Translations under genes and position numbers: made by a program
Shown: in pieces, positions 6,164 through 31,180 of the stretch
Layout: every line of letters starts with the position of its first letter
Numbering within the stretch: position 1 is the first letter of the stretch
Notes under the pieces: generated by a model
The model's input: only the letters and a program-made list of their open reading frames with translations
Told to the model about the DNA's origin: nothing
Databases searched by the model: none
Virus record (IMG/VR): IMGVR_UViG_3300048573_000182
Span: 1-31,514 of that record
Source: a virus
DNA length: 31,514 bases
Strand: one strand, 5' to 3'

Positions 6164-6192
6164 ATTTTAACACTCAAACACCTAAAAGTCAA
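6164..6192 (-). promoter_or_regulatory. sigma70-type promoter for the tail chaperone and tape measure genes
   Basis: On the minus strand TTGACT (6192-6187), a 17-base spacer and TAAAAT (6169-6164). Transcription would start near 6157, about 50 bases before the G start codon. It is the same box pair with the same spacing as the minus-strand promoter at 22816-22844. Confidence 0.7.
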
Positions 6193-12808: not shown

Positions 12809-12837
12809 ATTTTATCACAGAAATGGAGAAAAAGCAA
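12809..12837 (-). promoter_or_regulatory. promoter for the protease-scaffold-capsid genes
   Basis: Minus strand TTGCTT (12837-12832), 17 bases, TAAAAT (12814-12809) preceded by TGA, an extended -10. The -35 box lies within the 3' arm and T tract of the terminator at 12829-12871, so terminator and promoter are overlaid. Confidence 0.6.
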
Positions 12838-19690: not shown

Positions 19691-21154
19691 TTATGATAGT
19701 TTGGTAACTAAGTGGCTAGGTATTGTTGTGTCTTGAAAACCGAACGAATTTGTTTTCGATGCAAAATCAGGAAGAACGAAGGAAGATGGAAGCTGGATAC
19801 CTTGGTTTAAATGGTAGAAACTATCTGATAAAGCGTCAGCTATATCGTCGTGTGTGTTTTGACTAAAATCCATTTTTTCAAGTTCAGTAAACGCAGAGTC
19901 TGTCCAGCTTGCTTTAACACATTGCACGTAACCAGCTTCGCAAGCACTGGCAAAAGGAAGAAATCTCTGAAGTTTTCCTTTTTCTGGGCGAATAAGTTTT
20001 ACATGAAAACCACGCTCAGACAAACGCCTAGCAAGGTCTTTGCAGTATGCCCCACCAGTTGCACCGGGGTCGAGAGGAAGAGATATTACAACTTCCTTGC
20101 CATCGCGTTCTGCTGTTTTAAAAATCACATCTTCAACAACATGTACCTTATCTCTGACAATAGCTAAATCTTCAAACGTGTAAACAGAAGCTTTGTCTTT
20201 AGACAAAAGAACTCCTGCTGTTGCATCTACATCAGGACGTACTTCAGATGGAGCACTGAATGCTAAATCCCAAGCACGAACTCTTTTAAATGCTGAAAAA
20301 TTCGCAGTGTCCACCATTTTCAGGTTTTCACGTTTGAAATATCCAGATTTACTTTCCCTAACCCAAGCACCATGTAGGAGTCTTTTTACCTCGACAGGAG
20401 GTAAGGCTTTCAAAGTACTTATGTAGTCTTTGTTTTGTTCAAGTCCAATAGGGTTGTCATATATTTTACCGGGCACAAACCTGTAGCTCTTGACTGGAGA
20501 ATTTCCCCTAGCATCTGCTGGATGTTTTCTCCGTGCCTCTTCTGCATCAGCGTAGAAGTGTGTGCCAAAACTATCTCGAACAAAGTATCTTTCAATATCT
20601 GCCACAGAGCTATCTGGTATCATGTCACTGTCTAGACTAAACTCGACAAAAGGCATTAGGAACGAATCTGGGTCTGGGTTGCAAGTAATATTGGCCTGCA
20701 AAGGATAGTCTACTATGGTTGATCTGAGTCTACTGAGCGCATACGCCACGTTATCACCATCTAGTTGCTGTCCCTCATCCAGCGAGATACGACTAAACTC
20801 CTTACCTTGTAAGTTCATGCGATCCGCAATCTTATCAAGATAGGTGAACTGTATCTGAGCACCAGAGCTAAACACTAGGGTTAAATCTCTAGTTTTTATT
20901 TTAAGTTTTGGATCAATTTTACTATAAAGCTGTATGGCTGCATCAAACAAACTACCACTACCAGACAACATTTTTGTCGTCTTACGTATAACTAGTGCTC
21001 TAGTTCCCTTGTGGTGTATGATAGGTAGCATACTCCCCAGTAGACACATTGATTTACCAGCAAAAGCAGCGCCACCGTATATCGTTAACCAGCTTTTACT
21101 CAATAAGAATGCCTGTTGAGCAGCACTAGCTGGCGCAAATAGTATTTTACTCAA
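19691..21154 (-). CDS. terL: terminase large subunit
   Basis: A 487-residue packaging motor with ATPase and nuclease. ATPase part: Gln13/Gln14 for adenine binding, Walker A GGAAFAGKS at 27-35, and Walker B ending in Asp126-Glu127 (RISLDEGQQ), with a likely coupling motif ITCNPDPDSF at 156-165. RNase H-fold nuclease part: Asp296 in RAWDLAFS, Asp362 in LPLDPGATGG and the acidic cluster around 436-440 (HDDIADALSD). All four expected elements are present, so the protein looks intact. It is preceded by the small subunit after 11 bases and followed by the portal. ATG at 21154 follows AAAGGAAATG. It would cut concatemeric DNA and pump it through the portal. Confidence 0.93.
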   Translation of the reverse strand: MSKILFAPASAAQQAFLLSKSWLTIYGGAAFAGKSMCLLGSMLPIIHHKGTRALVIRKTTKMLSGSGSLFDAAIQLYSKIDPKLKIKTRDLTLVFSSGAQIQFTYLDKIADRMNLQGKEFSRISLDEGQQLDGDNVAYALSRLRSTIVDYPLQANITCNPDPDSFLMPFVEFSLDSDMIPDSSVADIERYFVRDSFGTHFYADAEEARRKHPADARGNSPVKSYRFVPGKIYDNPIGLEQNKDYISTLKALPPVEVKRLLHGAWVRESKSGYFKRENLKMVDTANFSAFKRVRAWDLAFSAPSEVRPDVDATAGVLLSKDKASVYTFEDLAIVRDKVHVVEDVIFKTAERDGKEVVISLPLDPGATGGAYCKDLARRLSERGFHVKLIRPEKGKLQRFLPFASACEAGYVQCVKASWTDSAFTELEKMDFSQNTHDDIADALSDSFYHLNQGIQLPSSFVLPDFASKTNSFGFQDTTIPSHLVTKLS

Positions 21155-21165
21155 AACATTTCCTT

Positions 21166-21522
21166 TTATTCTTCTTTTTTGCTTCCATCAATTACGTGCA
21201 AGCTAAACGAAGGTGTAGAATCTTTCTGAATCTCTTCACCTTTTTCGTCATCATACTTTTCTTGATACAACTCTACACTTAGGCTACGGTTGAACTCCAT
21301 AATCCATTTACTCGCTTGGAATCGGACATTAGCTGGTGTTGCATTATCTTCCAACAACATGATCATGGTCTTCAAAGCCTTAGCCATGTGTGGTTTTACT
21401 TTCCTAGCAAGAGAAAGTAGTGTTTTTTCACGAAGCTCCCTATTGGTAAGATCGTCTGTAACGGTAGGTTCTTTAACCTTGTGTCCGAGAAGTTTTTTCT
21501 GAACGTTTGCGTCAAATGGCAT
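21166..21522 (-). CDS. terminase small subunit (probable)
   Basis: A 118-residue helical, charged protein placed just before the large terminase. Visible parts are a basic N-terminus (MPFDANVQKKLLGHKVKEP), helices with NRELREKTLLSLARKVKPHMAKAL and ANVRFQASKWIMEFNRSL, and an acidic C-terminus that may contact the large subunit. Size, order and helix content match small terminase subunits that recognise the packaging site. A clear helix-turn-helix is not seen. The open frame reaches 21570, but ATG 21522 is preferred, since the upstream part crosses the terminator hairpin at 21541-21577. The ribosome site AAGAAAAAT is weak. The packaging site may lie upstream in the tRNA/inverted-repeat region. 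Confidence 0.7.
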   Translation of the reverse strand: MPFDANVQKKLLGHKVKEPTVTDDLTNRELREKTLLSLARKVKPHMAKALKTMIMLLEDNATPANVRFQASKWIMEFNRSLSVELYQEKYDDEKGEEIQKDSTPSFSLHVIDGSKKEE

Positions 21523-21592: not shown

Positions 21593-21668
21593 TGGAGTAT
21601 CCTAGGTGAATCGAACACCTGTACTTTACTTAGAAGGAAAAGAGTCTACCGTTAACTTAATTGGTACA
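21593..21668 (-). tRNA. tRNA-Arg(UCU)-like, acceptor stem defective
   Basis: The T arm AGGTG-TTCGATT-CACCT (21620-21604), the anticodon loop CTTCTAA with UCU at 21634-21632, a D arm (AGTT/GACT with GG in the loop) and an encoded CCA (21595-21593) are present. The anticodon stem has one T-T mismatch. The 3' acceptor strand AGGATAC has no proper partner: the only partial match, GTGTACC at 21669-21663, belongs to the 3' end of the neighbouring tRNA-Glu, leaves two mismatches and gives an overlong connector. It is either a decayed tRNA or one sharing bases with its neighbour. The 5' end is therefore uncertain. Confidence 0.5.
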
Positions 21669-21737
21669 CACACGGAGAATTGAACTCACGATTCTTTGGT
21701 TGAAAACCAAATATCCTAACCACTAGACGATGCGTGT
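21662..21737 (-). tRNA. tRNA-Glu(UUC)
   Basis: 76 bases with encoded CCA. The acceptor ACACGCA/TGTGTGT pairs fully with one G-U, discriminator A. The anticodon arm TTTGG-TTTTCAA-CCAAA gives UUC at 21704-21702. The D arm begins GTCTAGTGG, as in many Glu tRNAs. The T arm (loop TTCAATT) is weak, with three outer-loop pairs and a bulge. Confidence 0.85.
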
Positions 21738-21754
21738 AAATTATTGCTATCAAA

Positions 21755-21831
21755 TGGTCTATGTGGATGGATTTGAACCACCGACATCTTCCTTCCAAGG
21801 GAAGTAGGTTACCAGACTGCCCTACACATAG
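21755..21831 (-). tRNA. tRNA-Pro(UGG)
   Basis: 77 bases with encoded CCA. The acceptor CTATGTG/CACATAG is perfect, discriminator A. The anticodon arm CTTCC-CTTGGAA-GGAAG gives UGG. The T arm GGTGG-TTCAAAT-CCATC has one G-U. UGG can read most or all proline codons. The gene looks intact. Confidence 0.9.
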
Positions 21832-21840
21832 ATACTTGAT

Positions 21841-21915
21841 TGGAAGCGGGAGCTGGAATTGAACCAGCGACCTTTGGGTTATGATCCCAATAAGCTACCC
21901 CTGCTCCATCCCGCT
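21841..21915 (-). tRNA. initiator-type tRNA-fMet(CAU)
   Basis: 75 bases with encoded CCA; all stems pair: AGCGGGA/TCCCGCT, GAGC/GCTT, TTGGG/CCCAA, GCTGG/CCAGC. It carries initiator hallmarks: three consecutive G-C pairs next to the anticodon loop (GGG/CCC), the A11-U24 pair in the D stem, and loop ATCATAA with A37-A38. Unlike the E. coli initiator it has an A1-U72 pair instead of the C1/A72 mismatch and U73 instead of A73. An A1-U72 pair is weak and may still allow formylation. Confidence 0.9.
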
Positions 21916-21918
21916 GTA

Positions 21919-22065
21919 TTATTTCATAGAGTTCTTTGTTCTTTACACCACGTATCAACCACAGTATCAGTGTGTTCTAGGTTATATCTAGTTTCTACGT
22001 AGTTTTGCTATTTACCCACAAAGATAGGCTGTTGATTAGACATTTTTGCAGACTCTATGAAATAA
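21919..22065. repeat. 14-bp inverted repeat spacer between two tRNAs
   Basis: TTATTTCATAGAGT (21919-21932) and ACTCTATGAAATAA (22052-22065) are perfect inverted copies enclosing 119 bases. On the minus strand the arms directly follow the atypical tRNA and directly precede tRNA-fMet, so the transcript would fold into a long stem with a branched interior, including TTTG/CAAA and CTAG-type short stems. It may be a processing element or an unrecognised RNA; I see no tRNA or frame in the interior. Confidence 0.6.
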
Positions 22066-22066
22066 G

Positions 22067-22136
22067 AACTAGCGAGTGGACTCGAACCACCGCACAAGGA
22101 TTTTGGCCTTTGATCTACCGACTGATCTACGCTAGT
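22067..22136 (-). tRNA. atypical tRNA, identity undetermined
   Basis: Acceptor ACTAGCG/CGCTAGT perfect, D arm GATC/GATC with GG in the loop, T arm GGTGG-TTCGAGT-CCACT good. The anticodon arm is abnormal: AAGG/CCTT closes the loop CCAAAAT, which lacks the near-universal U33 and would give AAA at 34-36. The variable loop is only about three bases. The discriminator is U and CCA is not encoded (CTT follows), unlike the other tRNAs here. It may be a decayed gene or a tRNA-like RNA with another job. Confidence 0.6.
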
Positions 22137-22182
22137 AATGACGCTTTTCCGTTGCGACAAACGACCCTAAGGTAAGGTGTTC

Positions 22183-22329
22183 TAGTTTTATTTAATGATG
22201 GTCATTGTGTGCTCAGTGCAATAACATCACTGCCCAACGTTGGTGGCCTGTAGGGGTTCATCCACCCGCTTCTACGCCAAAGTTATCAACCTTTGTTTAG
22301 CACGCAATGGCCATCATTAAATAAAACTA
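22183..22329 (+). ncRNA. candidate structured RNA closed by a 31-bp stem
   Basis: The arms 22183-22213 and 22299-22329 are inverted copies differing at two positions. In a plus-strand RNA both differences are U-G pairs and the helix is continuous; in a minus-strand RNA they would be A-C mismatches. This points to a plus-strand RNA. The 85-base interior folds further: CAGTG/CACTG (22214-22232), a palindrome CCAACGTTGG, GGTGG/CCACC, and CAAAG/CTTTG (22278-22295 region). No RNA family is recognised. Alternatives are a packaging site upstream of the terminase genes, or a small mobile element with terminal inverted repeats. No clear plus-strand promoter is visible. Confidence 0.45.
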
Positions 22330-22391
22330 AATACCTGAGAAACTCTAGTATACCACGGTTTTGTAAAAACGCAAGCGGTTGTTTAAATAAA

Positions 22392-22583
22392 TTAATAATA
22401 ATCCGAATAAAGCACTGCTGGAGTTACTTTTGATCCGTTTATTGTACGCAGAGCTTCTATCTCATCTTGGATTTCAGCGTCACTAGGGTACTGCTGTTGC
22501 TCGTATTGGAAACAGTACTCACAGTGTATGGTTTTGTCGTATTTTACTGGTCTAATTACACCAGTGCAGTCAATGCATTTCAT
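22392..22583 (-). CDS. small zinc-ribbon protein
   Basis: A 63-residue protein with two CxxC pairs, Cys3-Cys6 and Cys21-Cys24 (CEYCFQYEQQ), which can bind one zinc ion in a ribbon fold. The remainder is an acidic helix (DAEIQDEIEALRTI) and a short Tyr-rich end. Proteins of this size and motif are frequent in phages and bind nucleic acid or host proteins; no specific role can be assigned. ATG at 22583 has only AT-rich sequence upstream, with a UUCG-loop hairpin (CCCC TTCG GGG) some 25 bases before it. It is the first clear gene after the promoter at 22816-22844 and could share its transcript with the tRNA region. Confidence 0.6.
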   Translation of the reverse strand: MKCIDCTGVIRPVKYDKTIHCEYCFQYEQQQYPSDAEIQDEIEALRTINGSKVTPAVLYSDYY

Positions 22584-22815: not shown

Positions 22816-22844
22816 ATTTTAGCACGAAAACAGTAAAAAGTCAA
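22816..22844 (-). promoter_or_regulatory. sigma70-type promoter
   Basis: Minus strand TTGACT (22844-22839), 17 bases, TAAAAT (22821-22816). The -10 box sits in the loop of a GTGCTA/TAGCAC palindrome that could be an operator. It would transcribe the zinc-ribbon gene and then the tRNA region. Confidence 0.65.
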
Positions 22845-31151: not shown

Positions 31152-31180
31152 TTGACTTGTTATTAAATCCGTGATAGAAT
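31152..31180 (+). promoter_or_regulatory. sigma70-type promoter
   Basis: TTGACT (31152-31157), 17 bases, TAGAAT (31175-31180). Start near 31187. It has the same -35 box and spacing as the promoters at 23875 (plus) and 6164 and 22816 (minus). Confidence 0.7.

Follow-up and report, generated by a model that had tools for sequence, protein, structure and literature searches.

Phage tRNA clusters contain non-tRNA RNAs whose role is unexplained, among them the band C and band D RNAs of T4 and sRNA1 and sRNA2 of PAK_P3. RNase III cuts long RNA helices of the length described below, and the early mRNA sites of T7 and the stems of rRNA precursors are processing stems of this kind. In the Nankokuvirus PAK_P3, two abundant late small RNAs are encoded in the interval between tRNAs and terminase, one of them between two tRNAs (PMC4933390). 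A promoter is annotated upstream of this PAK_P3 interval, and antisense RNAs are annotated there as well. Another kind of structured phage RNA are the put RNAs, which are about 70 nt long and form two stem-loops (PMC9378689).

We analyzed a stretch of 31,514 nt from a virus (IMG/VR record IMGVR_UViG_3300048573_000182), here referred to as the window, in which a long hairpin is located at the head of such a tRNA-terminase interval. By sequence comparison the window phage is related to PAK_P3 and Pakpunavirus. Its large terminase subunit TerL (19691-21154, minus strand; PHROG 979, E 1e-134) had its best named match in Limnohabitans phage DC31 (42%), followed by Pseudomonas phages of the Pakpunavirus/PAK_P3 kind (38-40%). 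The probable small subunit TerS (21166-21522, minus strand) was 46% identical to the gene in the same place of contig L008, the nearest relative (TerL 79%). On the same strand follow tRNA-Glu, tRNA-Pro and tRNA-Met (21662-21915) and tRNA-Phe (22066-22136), of which the latter is the first minus-strand gene past the hairpin and keeps its cloverleaf fold beside it. The hairpin is situated between tRNA-Phe and, upstream of it, an ORF of 63 aa (22392-22583) whose two CxxC motifs resemble a zinc ribbon when judged by eye; tRNA-Phe and the ORF are both encoded by the minus strand. Small CxxC ORFs were found at the same position in L008 and DC31. A fifth tRNA-like match in the window (21603-21660, minus strand; Rfam 32 bits) is without the 5' acceptor part and was not called by ARAGORN. 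Several relatives carry group I introns (RF00028) in or beside TerL (L022:6351-6577, L023:6269-6478, L024:6354-6563 and L020:3704-3953), and the TerL matches in L018 and L021 are stretched by a length similar to such introns.

The initial annotation had described a 31-bp inverted repeat at this place, and this was confirmed: the left arm (22183-22213) and the right arm (22299-22329), which form the 3' and the 5' arm of the hairpin in minus-strand RNA, respectively, match in 29 of 31 Watson-Crick pairs with 85 nt between them. The two mismatches are, as had been stated, G-U on the plus and A-C on the minus strand. A BLAST self-match (90% over 39 nt) and the fold of the minus-strand leader extended the arms outwards by 22175-22182 and 22330-22336, which pair with a 1-base bulge, to 22175-22213 and 22299-22336. 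This extension brings in a third imperfect pair of the same type, G-U in plus-strand and A-C in minus-strand RNA. In minus-strand RNA the helix has 19 uninterrupted bp, or 31 bp with two A-C mismatches, and an MFE of -59.3 kcal/mol. Fold z-scores of the whole element were -8.7 on the plus and -7.1 on the minus strand. In a strand-neutral stem scan the hairpin scored 66. The runner-up stem of the window reached 33, and dinucleotide-shuffled sequence totalling 157 kb gave no stem above 36. The inverted repeat is therefore real and far above chance. Another stem of the window, formed by 21459-21474 and 21639-21654, had a score that chance alone would give and was dismissed.

The 85-base core (22214-22298) contains the 10-bp palindrome CCAACGTTGG that had been noted before. 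It is possible to draw stems in this interior, for which at least three had been claimed. Taken by itself, however, the core folds no differently from shuffled versions on the minus strand (-21.3 versus a shuffle mean of -21.1, z -0.05) as well as on the plus strand (-18.3 versus -17.6, z -0.21), and the helix is therefore the significant part of the element. As the initial annotation had argued, the structure is too long for a terminator; no U-run follows the stem on either strand, there is no T-run beyond either arm, and the scan reported no intrinsic terminator here. A tRNA hidden in the core was considered and rejected, since no T-arm was seen by eye on either strand and neither Rfam nor ARAGORN gave support. 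At gathering score Rfam returned tRNAs only, and a permissive search gave matches at chance level.

Which strand is transcribed was judged mainly from promoter-like sequences. A site TTGCGT-16-TATACT (22347-22374, minus strand) resembles a phage promoter motif, TTGACTTTTTA...CGTGnTAnAAT, which was built from only four repeated intergenic sites picked by eye. These repeats of TTGACTTTTTA...CGTGnTAAAAT are found intergenically at 22816-22844, 6164-6192 and 12809-12837 on the minus strand and at 31152-31180 on the plus strand. Outside the four training sites, the site next to the hairpin was the best of the window, with a score of 17.15 that was reached by 2 of 60 whole-window shuffles; the next best site within 300 nt scored 5.7. 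Between its end and the helix there are about 11-18 bases, so that an RNA started here would begin no more than about 15 bases from the helix. The -35 hexamer fits the sigma-70 consensus in 3 of 6 positions, and a general promoter scan missed the site. Owing to the four sites picked by eye and the poor -35 box, we regard this evidence as good but not conclusive. On the plus strand no promoter-like site above 5.6 was found in the 300 bases upstream of the hairpin, and the closest match to a general sigma-70 promoter is at a distance of about 600 bases. As a promoter-like site was found ahead of the hairpin on the minus strand only, the hairpin is most likely a minus-strand 5' leader. The earlier suggestion of a stable plus-strand RNA thus holds in so far as an RNA is plausible, but the minus strand is better supported, and the core shows no particular folding.

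The G-U pairs on which that suggestion was based make a weak argument, because the two-sided probability that all three differences point to the same strand by chance is 0.25. For comparison, the stem around a tRNA-Pro in L021 contains four imperfect pairs, all of them G-U on the tRNA strand. The asymmetry is worth mentioning but is not enough to override the promoter evidence.

The helix is the only significant part of the element and probably forms the 5' end of a long transcript starting with tRNAs. We therefore tentatively favor a leader close to the promoter of the minus-strand transcript of tRNAs and terminase, with the helix serving in RNase III-type processing or in protection of the 5' end, although our confidence in this reading stays somewhat below one half. 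Transcription would start from the putative promoter at about 22340 on the minus strand, and the first bases of the transcript would fold back onto 22175-22213 to form a helix of 31 to 38 bp with a loop that has no special structure. Having passed the tRNA cluster, the transcript would continue into the genes for terminase and structural proteins. Host RNase III would trim the helix and thereby release the tRNA precursor, and the helix might also, or instead, shield the 5' end against single-strand-dependent decay. The helix with its significance, the promoter-like site nearby and the gene order were observed directly, and the helix has the length of about 20 bp or more expected of an RNase III leader. 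Use of the promoter, a cut by RNase III at this site and an importance for the phage are inferred. This leader reading is supported by the gene order in DC31, the promoter and small RNAs of PAK_P3, the recurrence of stems in related tRNA clusters and the undisturbed cloverleaf of tRNA-Phe. It is weakened by the lack of a diverged hairpin homologue, with no hairpin at this place in the nearest relative L008, by the three imperfect pairs all being A-C on the minus strand, unlike those in the tRNA-Pro stem of L021, and by the sigma-70 match of only 3 of 6 in a -35 box that the general scan did not report.

The search for further copies of the arms, as proposed in the initial annotation, was carried out in the window and in other phages. 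The hairpin is single-copy in the window, also by BLAST self-comparison, and exact arms in viral contigs were restricted to the same locus. An exact 22-base arm had no match in 84,980 genomes, and blastn of the hairpin region against phages and against plasmids returned no homologue. The hairpin is also present in one further contig, which matches the window without a difference over 10,064 bases, so that the only copies found are identical, and this contig was the only carrier among the examined neighbors of TerL, TerS and the 63-aa ORF. A gapped double-arm pattern gave eight new matches in viral contigs, which were rejected as they appeared protein-coding and had unrelated interiors. An exact 19-base match in L004 falls in apparent coding sequence and was taken as chance. 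Elsewhere on this unrelated phage contig (L004:1871-1993) there is an intergenic 19-bp inverted repeat with ends TAGTTTTT... that also surrounds 85 bases; the shared spacing is probably a coincidence.

No conserved counterpart of the hairpin was found in L008, DC31 or PAK_P3. L008 is without it at the corresponding place and retains the order of small CxxC ORF, leader and tRNA-like gene. DC31 repeats the order of small CxxC ORF, promoter-like site (TTGACA-17-TACAAT), untranslated leader, tRNA cluster and terminase, with a short hairpin ahead of the first tRNA. In the data examined, the hairpin therefore appears to be limited to one phage lineage. In place of tRNA-Phe, L008 encodes a tRNA-like gene of 58 nt (L008:6014-6071; Rfam tRNA 42 bits) from which the anticodon arm is apparently missing.

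Long stems around RNA units recur in the tRNA clusters of this phage group. Between tRNA-Phe and tRNA-Met the window contains a weaker stem-enclosed unit, element B (21919-22065, minus strand), with a closing stem of 14-15 bp. Its homologue in L008 (6066-6230) has a closing stem with three two-sided pair changes relative to the window, and sliding the stem partner by 1-3 columns gave no two-sided changes. These changes were equaled by 53 of 500 shuffles and come from two sequences only, so that they are no more than suggestive. Element B overlaps a short reading frame common to the window and L008 (MSNQQPIFVGK* and MPNQQPIFEGRKQG..., L008 read by eye). The second case is the tRNA-Pro of L021 (L021:4934-5039), which is placed inside a stem of 22-23 bp, its acceptor stem being lengthened by about 16 bp.

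Other readings of the hairpin were weighed against the leader. A stable small or antisense RNA from the plus strand, opposite the tRNAs, would explain why all three imperfect arm pairs are G-U on plus, and the single imperfect pair in the element B stem of L008 likewise remains a pair only in RNA antisense to the tRNAs; the annotated antisense RNAs in the tRNA-terminase interval of PAK_P3 also fit. Even when element B's two positions are pooled with the three in the arms, however, the two-sided chance is still about 0.06, and with upstream plus-strand scores of at most 5.6 and a plus-strand core fold at chance we consider this reading unlikely. A cis-acting antitermination leader similar to put, in which the nascent hairpin would bind RNA polymerase and allow readthrough of the untranslated tRNA region of about 770 bases to the late genes, agrees with the position directly past a promoter-like site and ahead of an extended untranslated region that is followed by about 21 kb of codirectional genes. 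HK022 putL is likewise encoded just downstream of its own promoter (PMC9378689). The architecture of two stem-loops in about 70 nt differs, however, from one helix of 31-38 bp with an unstructured loop, and the hairpin is not common to relatives, which makes such a leader rather improbable. We would give still less credence to a phage RNA device peculiar to this lineage, such as a double-stranded RNA, put-like or acting as a decoy, that heads the tRNA transcript and might manipulate RNA polymerase or an RNA-directed defence of the host.

Explanations at the DNA level were also considered. The long, nearly perfect palindromic arrangement close to the terminase genes would suit a packaging, replication or protein-binding site or a cruciform, and packaging (cos/pac) had been among the first proposals. 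The termini of the related Pakpunavirus Adele were mapped by PhageTerm and consist of direct terminal repeats of 1165 bp, its record of 93,202 bases comprising 90,872 plus two such repeats, and its tRNA-TerL interval is about 22-25 kb away from the physical end, with the tRNAs and TerL at 22.3-26.7 kb. A packaging site is thus disfavored, the mapped ends being those of a relative and not of the window phage, and given the absence of a conserved counterpart in L008, DC31 and PAK_P3 we see only a small chance for a DNA-level site in general. The least probable explanation, in our estimate, is a small mobile element or its remnant. The MITE-like appearance that had been pointed out is genuine in its size of 147 bp, its 31-bp terminal inverted repeats and its ends TAG...CTA, but there is a single copy in the window, viral contigs have it at the same locus only, plasmids and phages lack it, no exact arm occurs in 84,980 genomes, and there is no target duplication beyond a palindromic TA.

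The hairpin is a real and strong, if modest, lineage-specific feature and probably the leader at the 5' end of the tRNA-terminase transcript, its function being inferred. Together with element B, the helix behind its promoter-like site offers a concrete and cheap case in which start, processing and protection of phage tRNA transcripts can be addressed.

Among described systems, HK022 put RNA resembles the hairpin as a structured RNA right after a promoter that heads a long transcript, but it has two stem-loops where the hairpin is a single long helix. The stable RNAs of T4, 139 and 119 nt long and not tRNAs themselves, are encoded beside a phage tRNA cluster; they differ in being located at the distant end of the cluster rather than next to a promoter, in having no 31-bp closing helix and, for rnaC, in ending in a tRNA-like T-arm. 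sRNA1 and sRNA2 of PAK_P3 are closer in setting, being non-coding RNAs of the tRNA interval upstream of terminase in a related phage (TerL about 39%), and their annotated lengths of 83 and 134 nt are similar to that of the hairpin element. No sequence similarity to them was detected, and the PAK_P3 interval has no long closing helix and no stem scoring 30 or more; sRNA2 has a fold z of -0.34 and a tRNA-like T-arm that is absent from the window hairpin. Both sRNA2 (L047:6310-6430) and rnaC of T4 (L058:1409-1547) carry the T-arm (GGTTCGATTCC and GGTTCGAATCC, respectively) in the 3' half, and the remainder is non-tRNA. These T-arms hint that stable RNAs of phage tRNA clusters may derive from tRNAs. 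Although the hairpin encloses no recognizable mature RNA and its cleavage is a prediction, it shares with RNase III processing stems a long uninterrupted RNA helix, located in what would be an untranslated portion of a polycistronic transcript.
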